The translations under genes were made by a program, and so were the position numbers. 64,000 bases of DNA, taken from positions 109,840 to 173,839 of the forward strand of contig JAMPGO010000001.1 of the NCBI GenBank assembly GCA_023663905.1, read 5' to 3'. Positions 27,944 to 45,384 of this stretch are shown piece after piece; positions within the stretch are counted from its first letter, which is position 1; each line of letters starts with the position of its first letter. Below the pieces are notes generated by a model, which saw only the letters and a list, made by a program, of their open reading frames with translations, ran no database searches and was not told the origin of the DNA. Source of the DNA: Ruminococcus flavefaciens. GTDB lineage: Bacteria > Bacillota > Clostridia > Oscillospirales > Ruminococcaceae.

Positions 27944-28019
27944 TGGAGCTTGTGACGGGACTCGAACCTGCGACCTGCTCATTACGAATGAGCTGCACTA
28001 CCAACTGTGCTACACAAGC
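27944..28019 (-). tRNA. tRNA-Thr (anticodon CGU)
   Basis: 76 nt including an encoded CCA. Acceptor GCTTGTG/CACAAGC, D-arm with TAGCACAGTTGGTAGTGC, anticodon stem GCTCA/TGAGC with loop TTCGTAA, and T-loop GGTTCGAGTCC. Anticodon CGT (complement at 27984-27986) reads ACG. Confidence 0.96.
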
Positions 28020-28164
28020 ATATATCAGCGCAAAAAAACCATAAAGATATTGACAAACATCAATAAAAATGGTATAATTATTGTATCACATAAAAACAGA
28101 TTTGTCAAGAGCTAATTTTCATCCGACAGGCTTAAAATCAGGTATTTTTTGAAAAAGCACTGTT

Positions 28165-28223
28165 GAAAACCTGTTAGTTTAGGGCAAAAAAGCTGTTGAA
28201 ACACGGTGGAAAACCTGTTGAAA
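28165..28223 (+). repeat. 59 bp exact direct repeat, copy 1
   Basis: Identical to 28442-28500. Contains TGTTGAAAC, GGTGGAAAA and CTGTTGAAA motifs and the unique string TTAGTTTAGGGCAAAAAAGC. Confidence 0.95.
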
Positions 28224-28441
28224 CTATGTGAAAAACTTTGTTGAAAACTTTCTGCGCACTTTTGAAGTTTCACCAAATGCGATGCAGAGCCCTCGAATTT
28301 TTCGAAGGCAAAAATGTTGAAAATTTTGTGGAAAACTCTGTTGAAAATTTTGTGGAAAAACTGTTGAAATGTGTTGAAAAACTCATTCAAATCCCAGTAA
28401 TACGTTACTCTTAAAATTGGGGTTTCAACAATGCCTATGTG

Positions 28442-28500
28442 GAAAACCTGTTAGTTTAGGGCAAAAAAGCTGTTGAAACACGGTGGAAAACCTGTTGAAA
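28442..28500 (+). repeat. 59 bp exact direct repeat, copy 2
   Basis: Identical to 28165-28223, offset 277 bp; indicates duplication inside the array. Confidence 0.95.
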
Positions 28501-28868
28501 AGTGTTGAAAGTTTACTTAACTAATTCACAAATGTTGCACCAATCAGTGTGCAGACTCTCTTAATTTTTCCGACCTCAAATTGTTGAAAACTCTGTGGAA
28601 AATTTTGTTGAAAACAGCCTGAAAAATTAACAGAAAGTTCATAAACTCGCCATTAATAATTTTTTAACGTCATATTAACCAAATGTAACTTTGTAAACAT
28701 ATTTATCTTCAATTTCAGCGCATTTCATACAATTTCCGTCAGCTATCCGAAACTTATGTTCTTGTTTTTGCATTAACAAATTTTACAAATCATAAAATCA
28801 CTGACTGCGAGGATAATAAATCATATTGCAGTTAATGCAATAACTCAAAATGTGAATGGAATGATAAT

Positions 28869-29216
28869 ATGAAAAAATCTTTAACTATACTTCCTCTCTG
28901 CATTCTGGCGGCGACATTATGCACAGCCTGCGGAGATAAAGGGAACAATAGTTCTGATTCAGGCTCATACTACGAGGACCACGACTACGGCTATGGCAAT
29001 TCCGACCGTGATACCAATGATAGCCGTGACAATCGTGATGACAGGGACGGCAACGATATTTCCGACGACTTTTCCGACGTAGGAGAGGGCATAAGGGATA
29101 CGGTTGACGACGTTGTAGACGAGGTCGAGGATGCAGGCGAGGGCATTGTAAGCGGTGCGGAGTCGGCAATGGACGATATGACAGGCAGTGACAGAACAAC
29201 TCAGACGGCAGAATAG
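28869..29216 (+). CDS. Small acidic lipoprotein
   Basis: 115 residues. The signal peptide ends in a lipobox, LCTAC, so Cys20 should be lipidated. The mature part is almost entirely Asp, Gly, Ser and Asn with two low-complexity stretches (DRDTNDSRDNRDDRDGND and later VDDVVDEVEDAGEG) and no recognisable domain. Probably a disordered surface or membrane-outer-face protein. No strong Shine-Dalgarno is visible; TGGAATG lies 6 bp upstream. Confidence 0.75.
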   Translation: MKKSLTILPLCILAATLCTACGDKGNNSSDSGSYYEDHDYGYGNSDRDTNDSRDNRDDRDGNDISDDFSDVGEGIRDTVDDVVDEVEDAGEGIVSGAESAMDDMTGSDRTTQTAE

Positions 29217-29292: not shown

Positions 29293-30546
29293 CTATCCGC
29301 AGATTTCGATTATCGCTTCAGCCATAATTTCGGCATTTTTCAACAGACTTTCCTCCGTAATAAACTCGCCACAGCCGTGGATATTGCAGTTCTCGCCGGG
29401 AAAAGCAGGACCGAAAGCCACACCGCCGACAACATCGTGTACATAAGTACCACCGCCGATAGTAATGCAGTAGCCCTTATCCCCGGTAACTTTTTCGTAC
29501 ACACGAAGCAGAGCCTGTACAAAACTGCTGTTTTCGTCAGTATAATGCGGTTCAGAGCCGTCGCAGGAATCGATTTCAAAGCCGATTTCCGTAAGTTTTC
29601 CGCAGATAATTCCGCCGATTTCGGACTTCGTCCTGTCCATAGGAAATCTTATATCGATACCGCCCTTAAGCCGACCGCACTCCGTGTTAATCAGAGAAAG
29701 AACGCAGGTAATGTCAGGAATATCGCCGAAAATGGATTTTCCGTTGCATTCGCCGTGCGGAAATAGCCGTGCCAGACCGTTAAGAAGCTTATTATGAGTA
29801 CCGCTATGAGCAAGGCAGTCCGTAATAGCATTCTCGCCCATTTCGGGAGTAGAAGCGTGAGCGGATTTTCCGCTGTAAAGCTCACAGCACCTGTCGCCGT
29901 CAGCGATAGAACAATGCTGAGGGACAGCATTGATAACCTCACCGCCGTTAATTGACCAACCGCTGTATTCGGCGGAAAAATAGACTCTGAGCATACCTTT
30001 TTCGCCGTTGATTACAGGATATTCGCCGTCGGGAGTAAAAACCATAGGCGGAAGATTTCTTTTTGTGCGGTAATAAGCGAGGTCGGCAGACCCGTTTTCC
30101 TCATTCGTGCCGAAGATAAGGCGAACGCTCTTTTTCAGGGGAATACCGAGTTCCTTGACAGCCCTGAGAGCGAACAGAGAAGCAACCGCAGGACCTTTGT
30201 CATCGCTTGTGCCACGACCAATAAGCCTGCCGTTCTCACGTTTCAGAACGAAAGGGTCATTTTCCCAGCCGTTGCCTTCGGGAACAACATCGAGGTGAGA
30301 GAGTATACCAAGAACAGGTTCACCCTCGCCGAAATCGGCAGAACCTGCAAACCAGTCGATATTTTCGGTACTGAAGCCGAACTCAGAACATTTTTCCAGC
30401 ATTTTCTCGAGAGCCTTTGCAGGTTTTTTGCCGAACGGAAACTGTCCGTTTGGTTCATTCTGCACGCTTCTCACGGCAACAAGCTCCGCAAGGAAGCTGA
30501 ACATTTCTTCCTTATGGGATTCAAGATATTCTGTTATTCTGCTCAA
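29293..30546 (-). CDS. M20-family dipeptidase (PepV/Sapep type)
   Basis: 417 residues with a TTG start behind GGTGAT. Metal-site motifs of the M20 family: LSHLDVVPEGNGW (His/Asp) and GRGTSDDKGP (bridging Asp), then NEENGSADL (catalytic Glu and metal Glu) and a C-terminal HGCGEF (last His ligand). Cytoplasmic; hydrolyses dipeptides with a broad N-terminal preference in characterised relatives. Single gene with its own terminator. Confidence 0.92.
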   Translation of the reverse strand: MSRITEYLESHKEEMFSFLAELVAVRSVQNEPNGQFPFGKKPAKALEKMLEKCSEFGFSTENIDWFAGSADFGEGEPVLGILSHLDVVPEGNGWENDPFVLKRENGRLIGRGTSDDKGPAVASLFALRAVKELGIPLKKSVRLIFGTNEENGSADLAYYRTKRNLPPMVFTPDGEYPVINGEKGMLRVYFSAEYSGWSINGGEVINAVPQHCSIADGDRCCELYSGKSAHASTPEMGENAITDCLAHSGTHNKLLNGLARLFPHGECNGKSIFGDIPDITCVLSLINTECGRLKGGIDIRFPMDRTKSEIGGIICGKLTEIGFEIDSCDGSEPHYTDENSSFVQALLRVYEKVTGDKGYCITIGGGTYVHDVVGGVAFGPAFPGENCNIHGCGEFITEESLLKNAEIMAEAIIEICG

Positions 30547-31985: not shown

Positions 31986-32765
31986 TTATTTGTTTATTGG
32001 AATTGCCGAAAATTCGCTAAAAAAATTATCGCAGAAACGGTCAAAATCGAGGGGTCTGAACAAGTTTTCAACATCTTTGTGCAATAATTCCATACACTCT
32101 CCGAATCTCAGTTTTTCGGGAAGAACAAGACCGCCGACTGAAATTCTCATCAACTTTTCAACACGGTTTTCAACACTGGCGAACATCCTCTTGACCTGAT
32201 GATATTTTCCCTCGTGCAGTTCTACAAATGCCATATTATCGCAGTTTCCGATGCTTCTTACCCTCGCAGGAAGGCACTTCTCTCCGTCTCCGAGGACTAT
32301 CCCTCTCCAGAATAAGTCAACATATTTACTTTGGAAGGATTCAGCAAGTTTCACAATATAAATTTTGGGTATATGATTCTTCGGCGACAGAATCCTGTGT
32401 GCAAGCTCGCCGTCGTTCGTGATAAGAAGCGCCCCGACAGAATCCTTGTCAAGCCGTCCGGCAGGGAAAAGACCCTTCGCCCTCATCTCCTGCGGAACAA
32501 GCTCCAGAACGCTTGGACCGTCGCTGTCGTCAGTCGAGCTTACATAACCCTCGGGCTTATTCATCAGGATATAGCGCAGAACATCATTCCTGACCCTTTC
32601 GCCTGCAACGCATACGCAAGCCTCATCGGGATTGATTTTGCAGTCGGATTTCCGCACAGCCCTGCCGTCAACCGTAATCTTGCCCTGCCCTGCGAGTTCC
32701 TTAATCCGAGAGCGTGAAAACTCCGTTCTGTCGGAAATAAATTTGTCCAGTCTGATTTGTGGCAT
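31986..32765 (-). CDS. RsuA/RluF-family rRNA pseudouridine synthase
   Basis: 259 residues from MPQIRLDKF, whose binding site GGAGGA overlaps an upstream in-frame ATG that is therefore rejected. An S4 RNA-binding domain (1-55) precedes the catalytic domain, with PAGRLDKDSVGALLITNDG holding the catalytic Asp and HQVKRMF near the end. Isomerises a uridine in 16S or 23S rRNA; the subfamily (RsuA position 516 or RluF) is not certain. Confidence 0.92.
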   Translation of the reverse strand: MPQIRLDKFISDRTEFSRSRIKELAGQGKITVDGRAVRKSDCKINPDEACVCVAGERVRNDVLRYILMNKPEGYVSSTDDSDGPSVLELVPQEMRAKGLFPAGRLDKDSVGALLITNDGELAHRILSPKNHIPKIYIVKLAESFQSKYVDLFWRGIVLGDGEKCLPARVRSIGNCDNMAFVELHEGKYHQVKRMFASVENRVEKLMRISVGGLVLPEKLRFGECMELLHKDVENLFRPLDFDRFCDNFFSEFSAIPINK

Positions 32766-32871
32766 ATTGTCCTCCATAGGATTTTTATTTTCATCCGGAA
32801 ATTATCTGCATATTTCTCGAACCGTGATGAATAATAATTATCAGTCATTAATTGTCAAGGAGTGATTAACT

Positions 32872-43250: not shown

Positions 43251-44357
43251 TCAGCCTCTGAGCTGAATAGGCATAACGAGGAAGATATAATCCTCACCCA
43301 TAGGAGGAAGAATTTCAATAACTTTCATTGCGCCGTTGAATCTTATTCTTACCTTATCGCCCTCAGCAGCCCTGAGAGCCTCCAGAACGAGCTTGTGATT
43401 GAAGCCAATGGTAACACCTTCACCCTTGATGTCAGCGCCTATAGCGTCGCTCACACGTCCAATAGAGGTCTTACAGCTTATCTTCATAACACCACCGCTG
43501 ACTTCACAGCGAACAGGCGACTTGTTTTTGTCGTCAACGATAAGGGAACAGCGTTCGAGACTGCTGGCGAAGTCTTTTTTATTAACAAACACCTCAGTCT
43601 TACAGCTGTTGGGAATACTAAGCTTGTAGTTATGGAACGCACCTTCAAGGAGTCTGGAGATTACGAAGAAGTTGTTTATCTCGAAGATAATATGGCGGTC
43701 GTTCACGCTTATGGTGCATTCTTTTTCGTCAGCGTCCTCACGGATAAGGGTAGATACCTCCTGAAGAGCCTTTTTGGGAACAACAAAGTGGTACTTCTCG
43801 CTAGTACCTGTCTCTTCCGTCCTGATAGCAAGGCGGAAGCCGTCAATAGCAACGAGAGTAAACTTGCCGTCCTCGATATCAAAAAGCTCGCCTGTAAAAA
43901 TGGGCTTGCTTTCGTTCTGTGAAACAGCATAGCTTGTCATATTAATCATAGATTTAAGCACAGACTGCTGAACGTGGAAGCTTCTCTGGGAATCAACGAC
44001 AGGAAGGTCGGGATATTCATCAGCAGAGATAGCAGAGAAACTGCACTCCGTGGTATTGCTTGACAGTCTGACAACATTATTGCCGTCAACCTCAACAGTA
44101 ATATCCTCGCCGTTCATTTTCTTGGTAAACTCACTGAACAGTCTGGAGCTTGCTACAAACTCGTAATCCGAATCCGTATCAGCCTTGATAGTAGTCTTGA
44201 TACCCATCTCGAGATTATAAGCAGTGAGTTCGACCTCACCATCCGAGACCTTAACCTTGATACCTTCAAGAGCCTGAATGGTAGACTTCTGAGGAACAGC
44301 TTTAGAGACACTGCTGATAGCCTCACTGAGTTCATTTTTGTTGCAGGTAAATTTCAT
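43251..44357 (-). CDS. dnaN: DNA polymerase III beta clamp
   Basis: 368 residues starting [13 protein letters not shown]; three clamp domains; ends VMPIQLRG with the conserved MP.R-type C-terminus. It forms the sliding clamp dimer. GGAGG lies 12 bp upstream, rather far. It is separated from dnaA by a 1 kb gap containing the poly(A) tract and box array, which is large for this gene pair. Confidence 0.97.
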
Positions 44358-44433
44358 AGTGATATAAAACCTCCGATAAGATAATTTCATTCTGGATTTT
44401 ATTTTTTATCATCGGATTGAAAATCCGTGAGTG

Positions 44434-44478
<45 letters not shown>

Positions 44479-44519
44479 ATAAAAATTGTAAAGATATATA
44501 TTGTTGTTGTTGTTGGGGC

Positions 44520-45318
44520 TGTGGAAAAGTTGAAATGTGCCTCAAACGACGTAATATCGGGCAGAATTTTTCAACAATGGGGTGTTGATAAATTGTGGAA
44601 AAATGTTGAAAACTTTTGGCTTTCAAAAATTGCTGTTGAATTGTGTGGAGAAAATGTGGAGAAAAAGTTGAAAACTTGTTGAAACACAACTGATTTAACC
44701 AAATACCCCGAAATTTATCAACAATCTGTTGAAAGAGCTATGTGGAAACTGTTGAAACATGATTTGATTAATTATTTTAAATTGCATTTCACGGCTTCAC
44801 ATAGCCACAAACAGACCGCAAAAGTTTTCAACGTTGAAAGCGCAAATTGTTGAAAGTCTGTGGAAAGAGCAATTTTTTCTCAATTTTGTAAATCTTTTAC
44901 AAAATCACCTCTGTTGAGAAATTTTTACCGTTTTGTAATATTTGCATTTTCCGATTTTTTGTTGAAAACCACCCCAAAGTTTTCAACACACCATTTTTGA
45001 ATTTCGCCGTTTCTGCTCAGTACATAGCCCTAAACTTGAAATCCCAAAATTGTTGAAAACCTGTTGAAATGTGTTGAAACAGCTTTTTTGAAACCAATCG
45101 AACAAATTTTCGTTTTGTAATTGTTTTGTAGTTAATATGCCGTTCATATTTACGACTTGTTGAAACTGTTGAATTTGTTGAAAGATTCCGTTAACATATT
45201 TAACAACACCTTTAATTTTTCCCTGTAAATAGGGCAGAATGAGCATTTTGAAATTTGGTTTTTTCATTTAATTATATGTTGAAAACCTGTTGAAAACCTG
45301 TTGAAACAGTGTTGAAAG
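44520..45318 (+). repeat. oriC array of DnaA-box-like repeats (dnaA-dnaN intergenic)
   Basis: About 22 TGTTGAAA/TGTGGAAA motifs, mostly on the plus strand. Includes TGTTGATAA (44583-44591) and TTATCAACA (44715-44723), each one base from the canonical box. Phased runs: 44583, 44594, 44604; 45051, 45062, 45072; 45277, 45288, 45299, 45310 (exactly 11 bp apart). No gene is supported in 44358-45384; AT-rich stretches around 44880-44960 could be the unwinding element. Confidence 0.82.
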
Positions 45319-45384
45319 CGATTTTTCAAGTAAAATGAATTAACCAAAAAGGCATATAATCAAAAATTTTAATTTGAGCGGTTT

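Follow-up and report, generated by a model that had tools for sequence, protein, structure and literature searches.

A DnaA-box-like array upstream of a small lipoprotein gene in Ruminococcus flavefaciens and its relatives as a candidate DnaA-binding control region

Gene content of the window and the box array

The 64,000-nucleotide stretch of Ruminococcus flavefaciens DNA analyzed here (the window) harbors an array of DnaA-box-like motifs flanked by a tRNA-Thr gene and by a small gene predicted to encode an Asp/Gly-rich lipoprotein, beyond which lies the convergent gene of an M20 family dipeptidase (Table 1). Approximately 16 kb and many genes separate the array from the dnaA-dnaN gap, and the products encoded to the left of DnaN were recognized as RecF, GyrB, and GyrA in the NCBIfam check. 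A run of 43 A residues (positions 44434 to 44476), which may be real or an assembly artefact, adjoins the trio-like tract at the dnaN end of this gap.

Table 1. Features of the window that bear on the array
Feature	Position	Strand	Remarks
tRNA-Thr(CGT)	27944-28019	-	Transcription points away from the array
Sigma-70 consensus promoter-like site	28050-28078	+	12/12 matches, spacer 17; faces the array and the lipoprotein gene; consensus match only
Promoter-like site	28080-28108	-	11/12 matches; overlaps the 28050-28078 site; faces tRNA-Thr
DnaA-box-like array	28161-28613	+	TGTKGAAA, 17 on + and 1 on -
Exact 59-bp repeat, copy 1	28165-28223	+	Inside the array
Sole reverse-orientation box in the array	28423-28430	-	Aligned reverse box in L203, L081, and L103
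Exact 59-bp repeat, copy 2	28442-28500	+	277 bp downstream of copy 1
AT-rich stretch, array to start codon	28620-28868	+	GC 27%, window 44%
Short stem ATTGCA/TGCAAT ahead of the start codon	28825-28841	+	L081 has GTTGCA/TGCAAC there
Small Asp/Gly-rich lipoprotein-like gene	28869-29216	+	115 aa; one match in own genome
M20 family dipeptidase gene	29293-30546	-	Convergent neighbor; syntenic marker
DnaN	43251-44390		NCBIfam check
dnaA-dnaN intergenic region, likely origin	44391-45384	.	21 TGTKGAAA (19 on +, 2 on -); (TTG)5 trio-like tract at 44501-44515
DnaA	45385-46758		NCBIfam check

The initial annotation had described some 17 same-orientation motifs within about 450 bp, partly in runs at intervals of 10 to 12 bp, together with a dnaA-dnaN gap filled with the same motif, and both descriptions proved accurate. 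The 18 TGTKGAAA motifs of the array fall within 453 bp and include runs spaced by 12, 12, 12, 11, and 10 bp and by 12 and 12 bp, against a mean of 0.45 and a maximum of 4 motifs in 1,000 dinucleotide shuffles of positions 28161 to 28620. The whole window contains 54 such motifs (mean of 6.5 and maximum of 15 in 100 dinucleotide shuffles), of which 15 lie outside the array and the gap. Three boxes (32066, 32156, and 32168) are located within the coding sequence of an rsuA-like gene (31986 to 32777); box groups in this gene recur in relatives (e.g., L063, L069, L073, and L077), with a peak of 2.9 per kb 2.5 to 3 kb before the peptidase stop, and may merely reflect a conserved peptide.

Within the window's own genome, a MAG of 71 contigs that is 82% complete, the paired motif TGTKGAAAN{1,6}TGTKGAAA was matched 24 times (reversed control, 0): eight times in the window array, nine times in the dnaA-dnaN gap, once each at window positions 32156 and 47107, and five times elsewhere, in groups of one or two. 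The latter comprise matches within open reading frames (C11, 68 and 70 kb), matches where one frame ends and at its junction with the next (226.8 kb), and a pair ahead of a reading frame recognized by eye (C53). Many equal arrays around the chromosome would, according to the initial annotation, have spoken against its reading; no second array of equal size was seen elsewhere in the assembled 82%. Four boxes were observed at the end and junction of a 592-aa frame approximately 70 kb from dnaA (L076:11808-11897).

The two promoter-like sites between the tRNA gene and the array (28050 to 28108) overlap as near mirror images and are retained in three relatives (L080, L081, and L103); the region contains five promoter-like sites against a chance mean of 4.4, a number not above chance. 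If the 28050-28078 promoter is used, the boxes would lie within a transcribed leader. Rfam yielded only tRNA at gathering score in the window, L143, L110, and L080, and a reading of the locus as a non-coding RNA was rejected on this basis. The predicted lipoprotein of the window carries a lipobox-like motif, CTAC, which is atypical at -3 (LTGC, FTSC, or FTAC in relatives), while most members combine a signal peptide with a lipobox, an Asp/Ser-rich linker, and DAVDGVGDAGEDIVDG-like repeats; among five members checked, no Pfam family scored above cut-off.

The box array and the lipoprotein gene in related genomes

The comparison drew on 20 stretches, of which 18 came from ten relatives and two from the window's own genome. 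The M20 dipeptidase was present in the stretches of nine of the ten relatives, and a cluster of at least three boxes lay beyond the 3' end of the peptidase gene in eight of these nine, the gene on the far side of the cluster being variable; in G002, no box cluster beyond the peptidase 3' end qualified. A search of named genomes with the peptidase alignment was represented by the best 80 of 267 loci (the named loci), mostly from R. flavefaciens (strains YL228, YAD2003, and 007c among them) and Ruminococcus sp.; carB, a birA-like gene, and the gyrA block are among the genes on the far side. Across these 80 loci, box density peaked 500 to 1,000 bp past the peptidase stop at 6.4 per kb, versus 0.39 in the reversed control, and the conserved edge of the element toward the peptidase coincided with the start of the small lipoprotein gene, which lies on the opposite strand and possesses a ribosome-binding site.

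The initial annotation had named absence of the array from close relatives as an outcome that would speak against its reading, and had proposed to look for conservation relative to both tRNA-Thr and oriC. The array was found in relatives, in an origin-proximal place; the association with the tRNA gene was not general, as tRNA-Thr is present in four of the 80 named loci, directly adjoining the array in three (L080, L081, and L103, all close relatives of the window) and lying approximately 3 kb off in L151. Given its presence beside the array in 3/80 named loci, the proposal of a tRNA-linked locus like datA was rejected.

A lipobox sequence pattern identified the lipoprotein gene in 52 of the 80 named loci, which, with the window, constitute a 53-locus set. 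Among the 28 named loci with no accepted lipoprotein, some end near the peptidase (e.g., L079, L115, and L141), two (L104 and L139) possess unit-type box spacing but failed the lipoprotein pattern, and L146 was excluded because the pattern had matched an unrelated lipoprotein 7 kb away; the other pattern-negative loci contained neither a pattern match nor, where the sequence-only model R1 (see below) was run, a strong R1 match in the stretch.

The 900 bp upstream of the start codon in the 53 loci (45.9 kb) contained 397 boxes versus 17 reversed controls, and 49 loci carried a cluster of at least four box motifs. Of the 53 loci, 37 possess a reverse box at -205 to -207 and 36 possess a forward one at -46 to -48, and at least four of seven standard positions (-47, -88, -142, -151, -163, -195, and -206) were occupied within 1 bp in 36 loci; this register was not shown by the other 17, the window among them. 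Array and gene were inverted together in L096, L107, L131, and L151. The register was kept in the inverted units L096, L098, and L131 and in the relocated units L112, L116, L119, and L134; the box block of the inverted L107 was offset by 7 to 8 bp, and the inverted L151 had a different arrangement. Some lineages retain the lipoprotein with almost no boxes in 900 bp (L086, 0; L087, 1; L090, 1) or with none (L222), and the boxes are thus not indispensable for the gene.

Twenty-eight units, selected for showing the standard geometry, were aligned (alignment A2). The consensus comprises eight forward cores (-217, -195, -183, -163, -151, -142, -88, and -47) and three reverse cores (-229, -206, and -36), and 24 of the 28 units carry a distal GCAATATAGT-like motif at a distance of 246 to 250 bp from the start codon. 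Identity was 0.90 in box columns and 0.68 in spacers, spacing thus being conserved where spacer letters are less so, with the proviso that the compared rows represent related, non-independent species and that some records are duplicates (L203 = L080, L221 = L087, L223 = L090, L209 = L083, and others). Three loci (L082, L084, and L085) displayed a box quartet near -690 to -650, compared with -254 to -219 in L083, with approximately 430 bp seemingly inserted between the quartet and the lipoprotein start.

R1, a sequence-only model built from the 28 units, found matches in 113 of 120 genomes of the genus at E <= 0.001, including 63 of 65 good ones; weaker matches represented partial units or general box clusters, and the window itself was matched weakly (24.1, 19.6, and 11.9 bits). 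Among 197 genomes of the family, 155 were matched, although the two same-genus relatives in this sample were the sole source of matches above 43 bits, so that spread beyond the genus was rejected; the remaining matches were weak and of a kind that any box cluster could give. Using the lipoprotein of L143 as a query, the gene was found in 25 of 30 genomes, including all 17 good ones, at one place each, which in three of the 25 comprised two adjacent pieces. These searches show that array and predicted gene constitute one unit over much of the genus, usually in one copy per genome. As judged by sequence comparison, the array lies upstream of, and belongs to, a small single-copy gene for a predicted Asp/Gly-rich lipoprotein, with which it moves and inverts.

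The window belongs to a lineage (the window, L080 [the same as L203], L081, and L103) in which the 900 bp upstream of the start codon harbor 18 to 28 boxes. These extend from -133 to beyond -740 in L103 and L080 and from -263 to -708 in the window, where the closest box begins 263 bp before the start codon. The run of 12, 12, 12, 11, and 10 bp is common to the window and L081. Box offsets in the window repeat with a 277-bp period (-708/-431, -675/-398, and -653/-376), which, together with the exact 59-bp repeat at 28165 and 28442, points to enlargement of the array partly by a 277-bp tandem duplication in which the boxes were retained. The short stem ahead of the start codon in the window differs from the leader hairpin described below. 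Folding yielded z values of -0.83 for the window, -1.66 for L143, and -3.07 for L081; the window stretch thus folds no better than its shuffles, and its predicted fold uses pairs other than those of the short stem.

Leader hairpin and candidate proximal promoter

A hairpin precedes the ribosome-binding site in alignment A2; 99.1% of its cells pair, and two-sided changes affect 14 cells. Its number of paired cells, number of double-changed cells, and covariation score were each reached by 0 of 500 shuffles, which take no account of relatedness among rows, while two of the five measures fell within the shuffles (double-change pairs, 158/500; further pair types, 212/500). The one-sided changes are all G-U or U-G when read on the lipoprotein strand and mismatches on the other strand, and it is, therefore, lipoprotein-strand RNA that the hairpin seems to conserve; such a covarying leader hairpin suggests that the lipoprotein strand is transcribed there. 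The hairpin arms are formed by the -47 forward box and the -36 reverse core, both of which may be features of the RNA instead of DnaA sites.

The proximal box, whose A2 consensus is TGTGGATAA, was placed by eye at the would-be -35 region of a conserved -10-like GTAAACAAT. This promoter is a guess from conservation, and the position of TGTGGATAA would fit activation, the sign of control being left free. The composite pattern GGATAA-N12-18-TAAACAATA was matched once each in 6 of the 12 genomes searched, five times at the lipoprotein unit and once elsewhere (G008:C7), and was not found in the window's own genome; on account of this distribution, the regulon of a dedicated sigma factor was rejected.

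Proposed DnaA-dependent control and its alternatives

We propose, with a probability of roughly 0.6, that the array serves the lipoprotein gene directly downstream of it as a control region to which DnaA binds. DnaA would be expected to bind the boxes since they are of the kind filling the dnaA-dnaN gap of the same genome, and is presumed to assemble on them as a defined complex, such that the lipoprotein gene would be switched on or off depending on how much free DnaA there is or on its nucleotide state. In the window lineage, this putative control region would have grown to 18 to 28 boxes between a consensus promoter and the gene, where it may, in addition, impede RNA polymerase and act in origin-near titration of DnaA.

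A distinctly less probable, yet serious, alternative is that the array is mainly an origin-near DnaA reservoir of the type represented by the Bacillus subtilis clusters and Escherichia coli datA, which would titrate or inactivate DnaA soon after its own replication, the lipoprotein gene being a mere companion. Distances relevant to this question were derived from the first 99 R1 rows (at least 43 bits; 97 genomes, with G034 and G041 represented twice), weaker rows being left out; 53 of these units share a contig with dnaA, 38 are on other contigs, and 8 are in genomes with no accepted dnaA match, the same-contig units being biased toward short distances and including a partial dnaA match (G033) and a partial unit (G083). 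All 53 same-contig units lie on the dnaN side and 49 of them at 10 to 25 kb (median, 17.4 kb), with orientation being free (32 opposite and 21 same), a bias which favors a reservoir and is not needed by the lipoprotein-control model, but which may reflect stable gene order around the peptidase. Further in favor of a reservoir are the many boxes of the window lineage, constituting a high-density group outside oriC, and the early initiation of B. subtilis lacking six outside clusters (PMC5295017). The initial annotation had itself suggested a DnaA reservoir; its reading is partly supported, in that the array shares the motif of the genome's own dnaA-dnaN gap, is conserved in relatives at an origin-proximal place, and has no equal in the assembled 82% of the genome, but the link to the lipoprotein gene had escaped it. 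Against a reservoir, the box geometry follows the lipoprotein start codon, and titration alone requires neither a gene nor a fixed register. Moreover, among the units at exceptional distances from dnaA (32, 45, 53, and 82 kb), three (L208, L207, and L206, at 32, 45, and 82 kb) retain six to eight boxes within approximately 4 bp of the register, the one at 53 kb (L216) has three boxes, and the origin-proximal L222 (17.7 kb) has none. As distant units keep boxes and a near one lacks them, box retention seems tied to the gene rather more than to the distance from dnaA, although loosely and as judged from few cases. G115, a genome with 5% contamination, contributed two full-length dnaA matches, on contigs C27 and C57, perhaps from two strains binned together. 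On linkage of the boxes to the gene as opposed to the place, the observations point both ways: the register persists in inverted and relocated units, but a few genes have 0 or 1 box and most units are origin-near. DnaA-dependent control of the lipoprotein gene is ranked before titration, and both can operate together in the window lineage.

The initial annotation also raised the possibility of a second origin half. This reading was not borne out, and we regard it, like that of an additional origin, as very improbable. The many boxes do adjoin an AT-rich stretch, and a locally positive GC skew (0.07 and 0.05) occurs at 26 to 29 kb; there is, however, no skew switch at the array. The cumulative skew of the window reaches its minimum at 48 to 50 kb, near dnaA, with mean values of -0.030 to the left of the array, -0.068 between the array and dnaN, and +0.078 past dnaA, so that the interval between array and dnaN has the same sign as the arm beyond the array; these signs agree with those in G035 and G008 but not with the stretch beyond the unit in G031. 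A TAG/TTG tract of at least three units, corresponding to the clostridial trio pattern seen in Clostridioides difficile (PMC7561715), is present in six of eight dnaA-dnaN gaps, including the (TTG)5 of the window, while such trio tracts are lacking from the window array, L203, and 26 of the 28 aligned units; in the two remaining units, a tract of three units merges into a box and is as short as that of the G035 gap. Finally, in known bipartite origins dnaA usually lies between the two halves (PMC7561715), an arrangement that the array and the dnaA-dnaN gap do not display. In G002, the dnaA-dnaN gap contains 40 boxes (L065:8405-9717) and the lipoprotein unit (L088) 4 in 900 bp; expansion of the origin and of the unit need not go together.

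It is unlikely that a different DNA-binding protein recognizing a DnaA-box-like site controls the lipoprotein gene independently of DnaA. The motif TGTTGAAA does depart from the classical DnaA box TTATCCACA, but the dnaA-dnaN gap of this genome is filled with the same motif, for the most part in a single orientation, and the proximal box consensus of A2 is TGTGGATAA. Chance or a functionless repeat expansion, to which the exact internal repeat of the array might point, can be given hardly any credence, as shuffles never yielded more than four boxes and, between the window and L203, L081, and L103, boxes are 0.95 to 0.96 identical and spacers 0.49 to 0.50, with gaps in spacers only (boxes being defined on the window, which slightly favors them).

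Certain characterized systems share elements of this arrangement. In B. subtilis, DnaA activates sda and apparently represses several operons from box regions, and the yqeG/sda region, with eight boxes, is one of eight high-affinity DnaA regions (PMC4447404); a DnaA-box cluster is thus situated upstream of a gene in both systems, while the Ruminococcus gene encodes a predicted lipoprotein under putative DnaA control, its unit is usually near the origin, and its boxes observe a fixed register in many relatives and number 18 to 28 in the window lineage. The oriC-proximal DnaA-box clusters of B. subtilis (Okumura 2012, cited in PMC5295017) likewise lie outside oriC and could lower free DnaA, removal of six clusters advancing initiation, strongly only when all are gone (PMC5295017), whereas the Ruminococcus element is one large cluster with a fixed relation to one gene. 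At E. coli datA, transcription from a tRNA promoter through the DnaA locus can matter (PMC10950094); the window likewise has DnaA boxes beside a tRNA promoter, and its 28050-28078 promoter-like site points into the array, but the tRNA neighbor is confined to the window lineage and is transcribed away from the array, so that no tRNA operon reads into it. The bipartite oriC1/oriC2 of C. difficile (PMC7561715) resembles the locus in having box clusters in the same chromosomal neighborhood, and differs in that the window array is separated from the gap by many genes and has neither a trio tract nor a skew change.

To our knowledge, DnaA regulons beyond those of E. coli and B. subtilis are little known. 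No earlier description of the element was found in literature on Ruminococcus with DnaA box or with DnaA and replication origin, as covered by titles and the starts of abstracts, with few subscription papers included. The findings describe one base-registered DnaA-box-like element that accompanies a single gene in much of a major gut genus, and the gain, loss, inversion, and relocation of its boxes offer a natural experiment for separating DnaA titration from DnaA-driven transcription. Tentatively, and as a possibility we would sooner doubt than assert, the unit may constitute a hard-wired replication-to-envelope circuit. An origin-like complex of 250 bp with approximately nine to eleven boxes would let DnaA sense how much of it is free or ATP-bound and, once in each cell cycle, adjust expression of a single secreted lipoprotein, whose gene would be retained near the origin so that its dose doubles immediately after initiation; in the window lineage, enlargement of the complex would have merged lipoprotein control and titration in one device. 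The element is also a candidate for connecting replication initiation with the cell surface, in that the replication clock may control a cell-surface protein.
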